64,000 nt of DNA from Bacteroidaceae bacterium (GTDB lineage Bacteria; Bacteroidota; Bacteroidia; Bacteroidales; Bacteroidaceae), in the NCBI GenBank assembly GCA_017557635.1, contig JAFYYH010000016.1, positions 124,001 to 188,000 on the forward strand, given 5' to 3'. The notes under the pieces were generated by a model. It was given only the letters and a program-made list of their open reading frames with translations, was not told the origin of the DNA and did no database searches. The translations under genes were made by a program, and so were the position numbers. Within the stretch, counting starts at the first letter, position 1; every line of letters starts with the position of its first letter. Positions 9,991 through 57,283 of the stretch are shown here, one piece after another.

Positions 9991-10068
9991 GGTGCCCGTA
10001 GTTCAGTTGGTTAGAGCGTCAGATTGTGGTTCTGAATGTCGTGGGTTCGAGTCCCACCGGGCACCCCA
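9991..10068 (+). tRNA. tRNA-His (GTG)
   Basis: Full cloverleaf: acceptor GTGCCCG (9992-9998) pairs with CGGGCAC (10058-10064). The anticodon arm CAGATTGTGGTTCTG carries anticodon GTG, and the T arm spans 10041-10057. G at 9991 opposite C at 10065 is the extra G-1:C73 pair diagnostic of tRNA-His. CCA follows in the genome at 10066-10068. Confidence 0.97.
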
Positions 10069-18301: not shown

Positions 18302-18325
18302 GCAAAAAACTGCAATTTGCAGCCA

Positions 18326-18404
18326 TGGGGACGGTTCTCTTTGGCAAGTGCTTTTGTAGGCGACAGTCGCTTAATTATGTACTTGCCAAAGAGAACCGTC
18401 CCCA
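18326..18404. repeat. REPIN-like inverted repeat element, copy 1
   Basis: Perfect 24-bp inverted arms, 18326-18349 and 18381-18404, containing GGGGACGGTTCTCTTTGG. In the right arm the core is enclosed by a small hairpin, CTTGCCA outside and TGGCAAG inside; the left arm keeps only GCCA/TGGC. The interior holds a small palindrome GCGACAGTCGC. It sits between the malQ stop and the ffh promoter. It shares its core with the elements near 40.3 and 57.2 kb. It has no coding capacity and would need an outside transposase to move. Confidence 0.85.
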
Positions 18405-18420
18405 GTGGCAAGTCGCTGAC

Positions 18421-20538
18421 TTATCTGCCAGACAAGTAGAGCATCTGACGTATTTCGTCATTGAATTTGCGGGCTTTGAGCAGTTTTTCTATTGTGAGGT
18501 GCATGCGGTAGCGCCAGTAGTTGTTGGAATCGGCCGGAACGTTGATGCGTTCTGATGCGGGATCCTTATAGCGGAGCATGGTGCTCATGGAGAGCCAGTC
18601 CTGTAGCGGGAATATTGCCAGCATTGAAGGTGATGCCAGGTGGGCCGATATCACACTGGTGCATGCAGCCACTGTTGCCTGCTTGGCGGTTATAACGGGG
18701 TTGGGCTCCATCTCATCCTCAATCCAGGCACGCAGGACGCTCATGTCATGGGTCGATGTGGTGCATACCGACATGTAAGGGTAGGTTGAGGGGTCCGATA
18801 CGCTCACACCCATGTTCTTGGGCATGCGCTGTACCTCGAGGGCGATGATGCGCAGACGGTCCATAACCTCCGGAACGCAGGCGGGAATCATACCCAGGTC
18901 CTCACCGCATACAAGCATATCGGTTGCCTCAATCAGAGCCGGGAGTTTGGACATTGCAACGTCACTCCAGAACTTGTTGTTACGGCTGTAGTAGAAGTCG
19001 TCATGGATACGGCGGAATGCATCTTTCTCACTGTCCGCCAGGGCCTTGAACATATCTGTATCAAAGGCCTCTATACGGGGATGGTAGGTGCCGGGACGGT
19101 GGGTGTCCTCAAGGAACAGGACATCGGTCTCAGGCTGACCTTCGGGTGCCTTGGCATGTAGGGCGGGGTTGAACGGGAAGCCCTTGTCCCACAGCTCCTG
19201 CGGGGTGTAGGTAAGGGCGGGATTGAAGCGTCCCATGAGTCCGCTGTTATATTCCAGAGGAACCTCCCAGATACGGAAGAATCCCAACAGATGATCAATG
19301 CGGTAGGCGTCAAAGTAATCGGCCATTTTGCGGAAACGCTCTACGAACCATGCATATCCGTCACGGGCCATATTCTCCCAGTTGTAAGTGGGCATTCCCC
19401 ATTTCTGGCCATCCTTGGCAAAGGCATCGGGCGGTGCACCGGCCTGGCAGTCGGTATGGAAAAGTTCGGGATGTATCCATACGTCACAACTGTGACGGTT
19501 TACTCCGATGGGTATGTCGCCCTTCAGGAGTATACCTTTTTTATTGGCATATTTCTTGACATCTGTCAGCTGCTTGTCCAGGTGGAACTGTATGAAGTAA
19601 TGCTTGCGGATTTCGCGGTAACGGTCATTGCCGGGAGCGCAGTATCTGTCAAGCAGGGCGGGGGTGTACTCGGACTCTTTCCACTGGCTGAAATCGGCCG
19701 TGCCGTACTTGTCACGGAGGTAACAGTAAAGGGCGTATGGCTCAAGCCAGCTGCGGTTGGCACTGAAGAACTTCTGGAACTCGCGGCTCTTGCAGCATCG
19801 GTCACCCAAGGATGTGTATAGGCGGTCCAGATATTCGCTTTTGAGCCTGAATACGCGCTCGTAGTCAATGGCCGTGAGGGCGTTGAGTTCCCTGCGTTCC
19901 TTGCGGACGTGTGCCATGAACTTGCGGTCGTCAACGGTGCCGATAAGTTCCAGGTCCAGATATATGGGGTTGAGTGCGAACGATGAGTTAGCGCTGTAGG
20001 GATATGAGTCGCGCCAGGTTCCGGTCATTGTGGTGTCATTGACAGGAAGGGTCTGTATGATGCTCTGGCCCGTGGCTGCGGCCCAGTCAACGAGCAGTTT
20101 CAGATCAGTGAACTGACCAATTCCGAAATCCCTCTCCGTACGGAGTGAGAATACCGGGATTGCCGTTCCTGCTCCTTTCCAGCGGGGGCGGTTGTTATGA
20201 TGAACGTACGGAAGCGCAACGGTTCGCTGCTCTATGCTCTGTCCGCCGTAATCCTTCCAACGGTCCGACAATACCAGACGTTTGGCGCGGGTGTAGGGGA
20301 TGGAGTGGAGCGAGCCCTCCTCCCGACGGGTTATGTTGCCGTCAATCTGGACGACATAGCAGTAGGTTATGTCACCCGCAGCGATATCGTCATCGTCTAT
20401 CTCATAGTCGGTGAACCATGTCCCAGCGCCGTTGTTGGCCATATCCAGGATCAACTGAGAACCGTCACTCATGTTAAGGCAAAGGAAAAGGTTCTCACCC
20501 CAGCGGGTTATGTACTCTATCTGAAAGTGTATCGTCAT
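18421..20538 (-). CDS. malQ: 4-alpha-glucanotransferase (GH77)
   Basis: Amylomaltase that transfers maltosyl and longer alpha-1,4-glucan units in maltodextrin or glycogen metabolism. An N-terminal starch-binding-like domain (about 1-110, ITRWGENLFLCLN) precedes the GH77 barrel. Catalytic signatures: DAYRIDHLLGFFRIWEVP (nucleophile Asp), LVCGEDLGMIP (acid/base Glu) and STHDMSVLRAW (stabilising Asp). The 705 residues are shorter than the ~890-residue Bacteroides enzymes I recall, consistent with one rather than two N-terminal starch-binding domains. Confidence 0.95.
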   Translation of the reverse strand: MTIHFQIEYITRWGENLFLCLNMSDGSQLILDMANNGAGTWFTDYEIDDDDIAAGDITYCYVVQIDGNITRREEGSLHSIPYTRAKRLVLSDRWKDYGGQSIEQRTVALPYVHHNNRPRWKGAGTAIPVFSLRTERDFGIGQFTDLKLLVDWAAATGQSIIQTLPVNDTTMTGTWRDSYPYSANSSFALNPIYLDLELIGTVDDRKFMAHVRKERRELNALTAIDYERVFRLKSEYLDRLYTSLGDRCCKSREFQKFFSANRSWLEPYALYCYLRDKYGTADFSQWKESEYTPALLDRYCAPGNDRYREIRKHYFIQFHLDKQLTDVKKYANKKGILLKGDIPIGVNRHSCDVWIHPELFHTDCQAGAPPDAFAKDGQKWGMPTYNWENMARDGYAWFVERFRKMADYFDAYRIDHLLGFFRIWEVPLEYNSGLMGRFNPALTYTPQELWDKGFPFNPALHAKAPEGQPETDVLFLEDTHRPGTYHPRIEAFDTDMFKALADSEKDAFRRIHDDFYYSRNNKFWSDVAMSKLPALIEATDMLVCGEDLGMIPACVPEVMDRLRIIALEVQRMPKNMGVSVSDPSTYPYMSVCTTSTHDMSVLRAWIEDEMEPNPVITAKQATVAACTSVISAHLASPSMLAIFPLQDWLSMSTMLRYKDPASERINVPADSNNYWRYRMHLTIEKLLKARKFNDEIRQMLYLSGR

Positions 20539-29492: not shown

Positions 29493-29497
29493 GTTCG

Positions 29498-29890
29498 TGG
29501 AGCTGGAGGGAGTCGAACCCTCGTCCAAACGGGGAAACCATATGCTTTCTACAGGCTTATCTCTACTTGGATTTTCGAGTTATGACTTGGATAGAGCTAC
29601 CGGGCCATAACCTTATCTTCTAAAATTTCATCCCTGACGCGAAGCCGAAAGGAACTATCCCCGATTTGACTGCACCACCGTATCGACGAGCTTCGGAGCA
29701 AGAGCTTCCGGGTGATGTCTTGTCACAATACCTTGTATCGTGATTAAGCAGATCTACTGTACTTCGATCAAGCAGCAAGAGCAAAGTTGTTGTTGCCAGA
29801 TAATTGTTGACGTTCTTTTTATAGTGCGGACCGACAGAGCACTGCCTGCTTACATACCATTCCTGCCCGCTGTCAAAGCCAAACAGCCCC
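29498..29890 (-). ncRNA. ssrA: transfer-messenger RNA (tmRNA)
   Basis: One-piece tmRNA that rescues stalled ribosomes. The 5' end GGGGCTGTTTGGCTTTGACAG (from 29890) pairs with the 3' end CAGCTCC plus A at 29498. The T-arm GGGTTCGACTCCC lies near the 3' end; CCA is not encoded. Its tag reading frame is at 29797-29768 (minus strand): GNNNFALAA and stop TGA, following the alanine added by the charged tmRNA. This resembles the GE-NYALAA tags of Bacteroides but has Phe instead of Tyr. A weak -7 box TAATTTCG lies near 29921-29928. Confidence 0.95.
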
Positions 29891-39480: not shown

Positions 39481-40272
39481 ATGGCACTTTTTAAGGATTC
39501 AAAGAACTTTTTCCTGTTGGCAGGTCCTTGCGTGATAGAAGGCGAGGAGATGGCCATGCGCATTGCTGAGAAGTGTGTCGATATTACCTCACGCCTGGGT
39601 ATTCCCTATGCGTTCAAGGGCTCTTTCAAGAAAGCCAACCGCTCACGCATAGATTCATTCACCGGAATCGGTGACGAGAAGGCACTCAAGATACTGGCCC
39701 GCGTACGCAGCGAGTTCGGTATTCCCGTAGTGACCGATATCCATCGCGAGGAAGATGCTGTCATGGCAGCGGAATATGTTGATATCCTGCAGATTCCGGC
39801 ATTCCTGTGCCGTCAGACAGACCTTCTGGTGGCTGCTGCCCGTACAGGCAAGACCGTAAACATAAAGAAGGGACAGTTCCTGGCTCCTGAGGCCATGCAG
39901 TTTGCAGCTCAGAAAGTTGCTGATGCAGGAAATAAGAATATCATGCTCACAGAGCGCGGCAGTACATTCGGATATCAGGATCTGGTGGTTGATTTCCGCG
40001 GCATCCCCGAAATGCAGCAGTTCGGATATCCTGTAGTTGTGGATTGCACCCATTCACTGCAGCGTCCCAACCAGACCAGCGGCGTTACCGGCGGTCAGCC
40101 CGAACTTATAGAGACTATTTCAAAGGCAGCCGTAGCGGTAGGAGCCGACGGACTCTTCATGGAGACTCATGAGAATCCCTCTCAGGCCAAGAGTGACGGA
40201 GCCAACATGCTTCCGCTTGACCTGCTTGAAGGGTTGCTTACAAAACTGGTGCGTATCCGCGCCGCTCTCTGA
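39481..40272 (+). CDS. kdsA: 3-deoxy-8-phosphooctulonate synthase
   Basis: Condenses phosphoenolpyruvate with arabinose-5-phosphate to KDO-8-phosphate for lipopolysaccharide. 263 residues. LAGPCVIEGEEMAMRIAE (about 13-30), FKGSFKKANRSRIDSF (about 47-62), CRQTDLLVAAA, DCTHSLQRPN and METHENPSQAKSDGANM with metal and substrate ligands. Last gene of miaA-kinase-kdsA; its stop codon lies within the extended arm of the inverted-repeat element that follows. Confidence 0.97.
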   Translation: MALFKDSKNFFLLAGPCVIEGEEMAMRIAEKCVDITSRLGIPYAFKGSFKKANRSRIDSFTGIGDEKALKILARVRSEFGIPVVTDIHREEDAVMAAEYVDILQIPAFLCRQTDLLVAAARTGKTVNIKKGQFLAPEAMQFAAQKVADAGNKNIMLTERGSTFGYQDLVVDFRGIPEMQQFGYPVVVDCTHSLQRPNQTSGVTGGQPELIETISKAAVAVGADGLFMETHENPSQAKSDGANMLPLDLLEGLLTKLVRIRAAL

Positions 40273-40413
40273 AAGCAGTACCATTGGGGACGGTTCCGTT
40301 TGGTATCGTTTTATAATTAAATACAAAAAGAACAGCGACTTACAATTAAGCCGCTGTTTCTTGTTTAGCAAAACGATACCAAACGGAACCGTCCCCAATG
40401 GTACTGTTTTCAG
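40269..40413. repeat. REPIN-like inverted repeat element, copy 2
   Basis: Perfect 37-bp inverted arms at 40276-40312 and 40370-40406, containing GGGGACGGTTCCGTTTGG. They extend outward (one mismatch) through the kdsA and serS stop codons, CTGAAA(G/A)CAG. Each arm has its own hairpin: outer GTACCA pairs with inner TGGTAT. Inside is a further hairpin AACAGCG-CTT/AAG-CGCTGTT (40331-40358) with flanking A and T runs, able to end transcription from both convergent genes. Confidence 0.88.
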
Positions 40414-56532: not shown

Positions 56533-57152
56533 AGAGATTTGCAACCATAATCATACTGGCGCTTATGGCGACAGCCGGCAGGGCCGATAACCTGAGAACC
56601 CTGTTCATCACCATGCCGGACTCAATAACCCCTACGCTGACCAAAAGCGACCGCCTGGATTTCCTGGACTACATGGACAGCGGAATGAAAGCCCGCGTGC
56701 GTAACAAACTGGGCGGCGAGAGCGTGATGACCCGGTTTGAGGAGAATATGCTGAGCATTCAGACCTCCCAGTCTGGACGCATGGACATGCTGCTTCTTAA
56801 AAGGGGTAAGGATGAGAACCTGATATGCATAATCCGTACGGTAAATGCCAAATATGAGGATTCATGCCTCTCTTTCTTTACTGAGGATTGGAAATCTGTT
56901 CCGGCCGATGAACTGATAGAACTGCCGGTTATTGACGATTATCTTACCAAAGAGGCCCTCAAGAACGATTCATTGGACTATTTCAAGAAAATGTCCTTGC
57001 TCAGACTCCAGTCAATTGTCCCCGCAGACGGAGCCCTGGAATTCAGATACACATCACTTGATGATCTTGGTGAGGATGCTGACAAATACCGGGACTGGTT
57101 TAAACCGACGCCGTTGAGGTTTAACTGGAACGGCAAAATCTTCAAGCGCTGA
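56529..57152 (+). CDS. DUF3256 family protein
   Basis: A 207-residue exported protein (signal peptide about 1-19, MKRFATIIILALMATAGRA) of the Bacteroidales DUF3256 family. Mature N terminus: DNLRTLFITMPDSITPTLTK, then RLDFLDYMDSGMKARVRNKLGG. Function unknown. Translationally coupled to truA (ATGA). Its TGATGA end runs into the third inverted-repeat element. Confidence 0.85.
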   Translation: MKRFATIIILALMATAGRADNLRTLFITMPDSITPTLTKSDRLDFLDYMDSGMKARVRNKLGGESVMTRFEENMLSIQTSQSGRMDMLLLKRGKDENLICIIRTVNAKYEDSCLSFFTEDWKSVPADELIELPVIDDYLTKEALKNDSLDYFKKMSLLRLQSIVPADGALEFRYTSLDDLGEDADKYRDWFKPTPLRFNWNGKIFKR

Positions 57153-57156
57153 TGAG

Positions 57157-57283
57157 GTGATACCACTGGGGACGGTTCCGTTTGGTACTGTTTTGAAAAA
57201 TAAAAAGGTTCGGATGTTTGTCCGAACCTTTTGTTGCTTTTATAGAAAACAGTACCAAACGGAACCGTCCCCAGTGGTATCAC
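57157..57283. repeat. REPIN-like inverted repeat element, copy 3
   Basis: Perfect 38-bp inverted arms at 57157-57194 and 57246-57283 with core GGGGACGGTTCCGTTTGG; each arm hairpin pairs outer ATACCA with inner TGGTAC (one wobble). The interior holds a perfect 12-bp hairpin, AAAAGGTTCGGA/TCCGAACCTTTT (57203-57232), with flanking A and T runs: a bidirectional terminator. The right arm supplies the rpmE2 stop codon (TGA in GTGATACC). Confidence 0.88.

Follow-up and report, generated by a model that had tools for sequence, protein, structure and literature searches.

Whether REP-like repeats are parasites or useful RNA or DNA sites is a common matter of debate, and the three inverted repeats that lie between genes in the stretch of Bacteroidaceae DNA analysed here (64,000 nucleotides, hereafter the window) raise the question of what such elements are, which enzyme could disperse them and what they do at the ends of the genes that they adjoin. 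A preliminary description, made from the sequence of the window, took them for a REPIN-like family with a common core and covarying arms, like REP sequences mobilised by RAYT transposases, and either moved in trans or old.

Three inverted repeats between genes

All three repeats were found where the preliminary description had placed them, and they are intergenic as it had claimed, occupying the malQ/ffh gap (copy 1), the kdsA/serS gap (copy 2) and the gap between a DUF3256 gene and rpmE (copy 3) (Table 1). The core said to be common to them indeed occurs six times as an exact match within the window, twice in each element; with up to one mismatch allowed, the window holds seven matches against 0.88 expected, a number reached in none of 100 shuffles. 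Folding of the elements as RNA gave z values of -13.6 for copy 1, -15.7 for copy 2 and -16.4 for copy 3. Copies 2 and 3 occupy nearly the whole gap between their two convergent genes, and the sequence between their arms, far from being a neutral spacer, forms a terminator-like hairpin in both, so that each is a hairpin-terminator-hairpin composite; a scan of the interior of copy 1 revealed no such hairpin between its arms. The interior of copy 2 (AACAGCG..CGCTGTT) recurs, being found in five elements of the window's genome. Copy 1 belongs to a 77-bp class of four elements (18327-18403 in the window, and L061 2331, L078 2373 and L090 2361), with spacers arranged around GCGA..TCGC and interiors that, when scanned, contained no T-tract terminator.

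Table 1. Features of the three elements, in positions of the window
Feature	Position	Strand	Description
Copy 1 (77-bp class)	18318..18411	.	two GGGGACGGTTCTCTTTGGCAAG arms flanking a GCGACAGTCGC spacer
malQ stop codon, neighbour of copy 1	18421-18423	-	
ffh, neighbour of copy 1		-	
Copy 2 left arm	40277..40312	+	hairpin GTACCA/TGGTAT enclosing the GGGGACGGTTC core; kdsA stop codon (40270-40272) 5 nt upstream
Copy 2 terminator-like hairpin	40331..40358	.	AACAGCG..CGCTGTT, T tracts on both strands
Copy 2 right arm	40370..40405	-	preceded by 5 nt by the serS stop codon (40410-40412, minus strand)
Copy 3 left arm	57159..57194	+	7 nt after the stop codon of the DUF3256 gene (57150-57152)
Copy 3 terminator-like hairpin	57203..57232	.	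AAAAGGTTCGGA..TCCGAACCTTTT, both strands; kept at the locus in 9 species
Copy 3 right arm	57246..57281	-	foot overlaps the stop codon TGA of rpmE (type B L31)
rpmE stop codon	57280..57282	-	within the foot of the hairpin stem, TGA-TACCACT-GGGG

Two other origins were discarded. A coding or rRNA repeat does not account for the elements, as nearly all copies lie between called genes and the only Rfam matches at gathering level in the window are a tmRNA gene (29495-29890, minus strand) and a tRNA gene (9992-10065, plus strand). Neither does chance account for the core, which stands far above the shuffles in the window and above a reversed-pattern control in the genome.

A genome-wide family of paired hairpins

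The preliminary description had made its proposal depend on further copies in the genome, and these are abundant, since GGGGACGGTTC yielded 163 exact matches in the 2.44-Mb genome against one for the reversed pattern. Stretches fetched around all 163 cores resolved them into 60 inverted pairs (120 cores) and 43 singles; as in REPINs, the pairs exceed the singles and fold into one long hairpin. Pair lengths fall into classes of 46-48 bp (n=19), 55-56 bp (n=4), 77 bp (n=4, including copy 1), 87 bp (n=1), 101-102 bp (n=6), 104 bp (n=12), 105-123 bp (n=13, including copies 2 and 3) and 643 bp (n=1). In the single element of the last class (L055, 2353-2995) a called gene separates two cores that lie 643 bp from each other, one side being of the GGGGACGGTTCGCCGTCCCC type.

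Covariation across the stem, proposed from the three copies of the window, proved to be real in the whole family, since 5 of 11 tested stem pairs scored above all 500 shuffles of the 163 arms and 80% of the cells at the seven central stem pairs paired in register, against 30, 30, 37 and 43% when the two sides were slid. The related claim that the arms are alike within one element stood for the GGTA-type long class (28 arm mismatches against 62.9 after re-pairing, 0/2000) and for the stem region of the 101-bp class (7 against 17.6, 3/2000), and fell for the 48-, 56- and 104-bp classes; in the 77-bp class an excess of own-arm identity was not clear. Homogenisation of the arms within an element was discarded as a general rule, since it holds in only two of six length classes. 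With respect to the foot of the hairpins, the classical REP sequence GT(A/G)G is not the one found: by eye, the feet are of the YRRTACC, GTGACAAA or (G)RGCC/GTGCC types, and no constant GTAG or GTGG was seen among the arms of this genome.

Transposase genes adjoining the hairpins

The search for a Y1 transposase gene flanked by the core, which the preliminary description had recommended, led to two Y1 (HUH-type) genes on contig C20, both flanked by hairpins. They are open frames of 265 amino acids, and the only two genes of the genome above the cut-off of Y1_Tnp (PF01797; 43.1 and 43.2 bits, cut-off 23). Both proteins carry the motifs NHVHLL (HUH) and YIHQNP with a catalytic-type Tyr; matches to a C-terminal helix-turn-helix appeared weak and all below cut-offs, and a search of the PDB found no sequence relative. 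Each gene adjoins hairpins of its own arm type, with 48-bp GGCACC-type pairs on either side of one and GGTAC-type hairpins on either side of the other, where the upstream hairpin is a composite with a terminator-like hairpin. An autonomous IS200/IS605 element, in which repeats and transposase move as a unit in near-identical copies, is not what we found here, the two genes being 64% identical to each other.

The idea of REPIN-like elements moved by a RAYT is therefore upheld as regards the hairpin arms and the Y1 transposases beside the same core, but the GTAG foot is missing and the scores against the NCBIfam RAYT equivalog NF047646 (59.3 and 58.5 bits) lie below the curated cut-off of 80. 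Given this foot and these scores, the TIRYT / subclass 2.1 branch appears the better fit for the enzymes than classical RAYTs, an assignment made by motifs. Likewise, of the suggestion that the elements are moved in trans or old, movement in trans would be broadly right, with the genes on another contig. The alternative of old elements left without an enzyme was discarded in view of the two open transposase genes on contig C20.

Many 48-bp pairs cluster within 20 kb around one of the transposase genes (G000:C20:217770-237520), and other short pairs crowd on small contigs (C7, C10). One element (L075, 2327-2436) has a terminator interior of the AACAGCG group between arms of the other transposase's type (TCTCTTTGGCACC), which amounts to an arm switch within the window's genome.

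Among 151 genomes sampled from the family, the core is present in 51, in most of them with one to four copies, numbers that the reversed control reaches too. Counts above five (163, 122, 20 and 14) are confined to four genomes, which all belong to this genus and each have a related transposase; a genome with five cores (G104) gave no transposase match. Inspected by eye, 11 of 14 transposase loci of relatives showed GGGGAC palindromes beside the gene, with stems that differ from locus to locus (e.g. GTACCA..TGGTA, GGGCAC..GTGCCC, CACACA..TGTGTG); GGGGAC was absent in two of the 14 (L100 and L128), and L110 has one without visible pairing. In eight named relatives the hairpins adjoin the transposase in three, lie 2.9 kb off in one and do not adjoin it in four, some of these cases being on short contigs. 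Another arm type occurs in a sister genome (G147; L152, L153, L154, L155, L159, L160) as minimal palindromes of 34 bp, GGGGACGGTTCTGTT(T/C)GCGAACAGAACCGTCCCC, with feet of the AACGCAAA type.

Placement of the hairpins at stop codons

With genes called by a simple codon-bias gene caller, 93 of the 163 cores have the end of a same-strand gene at most 30 nt before GGGG, against a mean of 18.2 and a maximum of 28 in 200 draws of random placement within the gaps. Distances from the stop to GGGG peak at exactly 4 nt (n=19, TGA-CAAA-GGGG) and, a second time, at exactly 7 nt (n=27, TGA or TAG-TACCATT-GGGG). Three other genomes have 11/20, 5/10 and 12/26 of their cores near a same-strand stop, where null fractions are 0.14, 0.05 and 0.13. 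The stop codons located 0-9 nt before GGGG are TGA in 38 cases, TAG in 12 and TAA in 6 (TAG/TGA 50/56), against 85 TGA, 27 TAG and 149 TAA for other genes in the fetched stretches (112/261; Fisher p 8.5e-11). Single cores have a stop at their 5' side in 18/43 and at their 3' side in 4/43. Long elements lie in gaps between convergent genes more often than short ones (21/32 versus 6/23, Fisher p 0.006), and for 18 of the 21 neither foot lies more than 9 nt from its stop codon; since the background gene gaps were drawn from stretches picked around copies, a biased sample of the genome, the argument from convergent gaps rests on this contrast between long and short elements. The preliminary description missed this placement at stop codons, as it did the enclosed terminator and the filling of the gap by copies 2 and 3.

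Terminator-like hairpins enclosed by the arms

By a terminator-like hairpin we mean one of -8 kcal/mol or better with a T tract behind it. In elements of 100 bp or more, such a hairpin is present in 28/31 cases on one strand, in 28/31 on the other, in 26/31 on both and in 30/31 on at least one, against 1/93 and 3/93 on the single strands and 0/93 on both in a control of three shuffles per element. The exceptions are a 101-bp element (L072) with none and four of the 31 with a hairpin on one strand only. In the shorter classes (23 pairs of 46-56 bp and four of 77 bp) no terminator-like hairpin was found. In an independent, simple terminator scan over 18.5 kb of the window, the top ranks went to the hairpins enclosed in copies 2 and 3; the scan gave no overall excess (18 found versus 17.4 in shuffles), and only its top three matches are informative.

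Grouping the interiors of long elements (54 elements, four genomes) gives 6, 7 or 17 groups at thresholds of 17, 20 and 24, and a lenient threshold puts 44 of the 54 in one cluster, giving one large and three small groups. As this grouping depends on the threshold, we give no count of independent captures beyond the statement that several interiors are unlike. To judge from their sequences, the long composites most likely act as bidirectional intrinsic terminators able to replace the native one.

Presence and absence at orthologous loci

At serS, where 24 of 30 loci were readable, six species carry GGGGAC-type hairpins, paired in five of them and with no fewer than four core types among them; the remaining readable loci have a plain GGCTCGC..GCGAGCC terminator in seven cases and neither in 11. 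At rpmE (30 loci), arms surround a GGTTCGGA or GGTCCGGA terminator in nine species, a count which takes in the degenerate L212, and 21 loci are without arms, several of them with an unlike terminator. In our reading of these loci, the rpmE stop is TGA in 9/9 with arms and in 4/21 without. The arms vary around an interior that is kept, being of the GGGGACGGTTCCG type in two species, GGGGACAGACCCC in one, GGGGTCAGACCCC on one or both sides in four, and degenerate in two. One locus (L217) has two different arm types, one arm each, and in G000 and G147, the two genomes whose transposase flank was also inspected, the arm type at rpmE is the type of that flank.

At aspS, where 27 of 30 loci were readable, eight species have a native GCCGCTTCTC..GAGCGG terminator after TAA, and in five others the stop is TGA and a single hairpin separates it from the native terminator. 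L238 has a hairpin on either side of the native terminator, and a convergent open frame whose coding score is weak ends farther on; the window's genome carries a 104-bp composite with an unlike terminator, plus a convergent gene. Hairpins are thus borne by 7/27 loci, leaving out L240 (a GGGGAC match that has no foot at the stop) and L230 (AGGGAC, degenerate), and the native terminator is kept in 6/7. The hairpin alleles are also without some bases that are present in the empty alleles. Since the pattern used for native terminators was loose, matching composite loci at rpmE and, spuriously, L250 at aspS, the states at rpmE and aspS were read from the loci directly. The orthologs form a series, from arm-free terminators through one hairpin between the stop and the native terminator to hairpin-terminator-hairpin composites.

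Probable spread of the composites

The twelve 104-bp elements are on average 79% identical inside (minimum 58%) and 96% in the 8-nt foot, with 27-30% identity in the 48-nt flanks. A query of 120 bases matched 16 of the genus's 37 genomes, in many cases through the arms alone. We read 21 long composites in two other species (G178 with 13, G171 with 8): a single one has both of its flanks in common with a 104-bp site of the window's genome, two more share one long flank and two further ones share a flank of just 120-135 bases. In G171, near-identical arms enclose several unlike interiors (L290, L292, L293, L295). On this sequence evidence, the 104-bp composite is to be regarded as having spread as a unit.

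It appears unlikely that the composites were instead built in place around a resident terminator and never moved, the repeated interiors being similar host terminators. Assembly in place would fit the hairpin, native terminator and hairpin of L238 at aspS, the single hairpin at that locus in five other species and the single arm type around unlike terminators in one genome (L288-L295), and constraint can make bacterial terminators alike. Against it, the 104-bp family keeps both spacer and hairpin at its 12 sites here and at 13 of the same length in another species, with unrelated flanks, and aspS in the window's genome has the 104-bp composite where other species carry an unlike native terminator.

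Proposed origin of the composites

We consider it probable that the repeats are non-autonomous hairpins dispersed on gene ends by a Y1 enzyme of the TIRYT / subclass 2.1 kind, and that the composites have spread as bidirectional terminator cassettes. Copy number, pairing, linkage to the transposase, placement at stop codons, the terminator-like hairpins of the interiors, presence and absence in orthologs and the occurrence of one composite at unrelated sites were observed directly. From these observations we infer the other parts of the proposal, namely movement by the transposase, the cut site, termination in the cell and the order of assembly. Most likely, the enzyme would recognise the GGGGAC hairpin as a single strand and insert it at gene ends, in which the GGGGAC loop motif is constant and the stem differs between transposase lineages. 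The hairpins lie just after stop codons, the coding strand being the one that reads GGGGAC, and often the stem foot is itself the stop codon (TGA or TAG), since the foot (YRR) can pair and at the same time read as a stop. Hairpins on either side of a terminator, usually between convergent genes, would then make up a hairpin-terminator-hairpin composite, and some composites may subsequently have moved on as a unit. Composites that work as terminators in place of the native one would be tolerable or useful at gene ends, and a selfish repeat seems in this way to have turned into a movable gene-ending cassette.

A more specific scenario, which we advance tentatively as a possible one, is that host terminators became cargo: the stop codon would have been replaced by a TGA or TAG of the stem, the terminator enclosed, the cassette made mobile and its arms rewritten in place so as to match the resident transposase, with the terminator kept. 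This rewriting is suggested by the GGGGACGGTTCCG, GGGGACAGACCCC and GGGGTCAGACCCC arms around one GGTTCGGA terminator at rpmE.

In E. coli, REPs close to stop codons are reported to affect mRNA stability or ribosomes. That the elements described here act mainly at this level and not on termination is improbable in our judgement, given that stop codons within the stem foot and long stems on folding as RNA would agree with such a role, but it would explain neither the additional T-tailed hairpin, which can be read from either side, nor the replacement of the native terminator; the role is, moreover, compatible with a terminator cassette. Also improbable is the explanation by ordinary REPINs, with arms that are a plain REP pair, an interior that is a loop without terminator role and a placement at gene ends left by purifying selection, since the terminator-free short and 77-bp pairs and the 43 single cores fit it, selection against insertion within genes would likewise drive elements to gene ends, and the placement of GTAG REPs between convergent or tandem genes with a TAG stop from the REP end is already published in the available part of PMC3733652, but a neutral loop should not give terminator-like hairpins in 30 of 31 long elements, nor does this explanation account for the convergent-gene bias of long over short elements, and random survival would not produce the exact 4- and 7-nt peaks or the shift from TAA.

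Relation to known repeats

The hairpins of this genome resemble E. coli REP/BIME in lying near the 3' ends of genes. We know of no separate intrinsic terminator enclosed between the arms of the E. coli elements. According to work cited in the available text of Quentin et al. 2018 (PMC6006769), REP/BIME hairpins near gene ends affect mRNA ends and transcription. With the REPINs of Bertels and Rainey 2011 (PMC3116915) our elements share inverted hairpin pairs with a spacer, an intergenic location, linkage to a Y1 gene and arms paired over their full length; those REPINs, however, are of the GTAG type, with a spacer constrained by length and pairing, and the accessible part of that paper makes no mention of a terminator.

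A closer likeness is that to TIRtrons. As set out in the available part of Di Nocera et al. 2013 (PMC3733652), where GTAG REP ends are also said often to supply a TAG stop, TIRYT genes are flanked by inverted repeats with a GGGGWSAS motif, some of which are repeated genome-wide as dimers or clusters. Here too a Y1 gene is flanked by inverted repeats; the motif, GGGG(A/T)(C/G)A(C/G), is matched in sister species by the GGGGACAG and GGGGTCAG types, but the core of the window's genome, GGGGACGG, is one base off it, the GGGGAC(G/A)G core fitting in sister species (GGGGACAG). More than 100 copies, a stop codon in the foot and an enclosed terminator also distinguish our family, features which that part of the paper does not describe for TIR elements. 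The available text of PMC6006769 places most TIRYTs in TnpA-REP subclass 2.1, characterised by NHVH and Y(I/V)H.NP motifs, long proteins and a C-terminal helix-turn-helix, and describes subclass 2.6 as the group of the Bacteroidetes, which has a YIH(Q/N)NP motif and hairpins that are atypical. The proteins studied here agree with subclass 2.1 in PNHVHLL, FQ and YIHQNP and gave weak helix-turn-helix matches, below cut-offs, at the C terminus, but the same text reports no REP-like sequences beside the gene in that subclass, and here they are abundant.

A literature search for terminator-bearing REPINs or MITEs returned, in the portions of the papers available, no recognisable description of an enclosed terminator, of composites or of an ortholog series. 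Relative to the literature so covered these three features appear new, and the REPIN-like family itself is of a known kind. The ortholog series, with none, one or two hairpins around the native terminator and a composite with a foreign one, offers a direct test of whether repeats take over gene-end functions, and such a takeover, if true, might account for their long persistence. It would also link TIRYT / subclass 2.1 enzymes, left without a REP-like partner in one survey, to a large dispersed hairpin family, and the composites are candidates for ready-made bidirectional terminators in Bacteroidales.

The arms may also enclose sequences of another kind. At L156 1588-1796 (G147) and L147 1513-1727 (G133), GGGGAC arms surround an insert of about 150 bp that looks mobile and has inverted ends of its own (AGAACTTTTGAGGTATCAGTATCTGAAAC..), and a piece resembling this insert adjoins one core of the window's genome, at L049.
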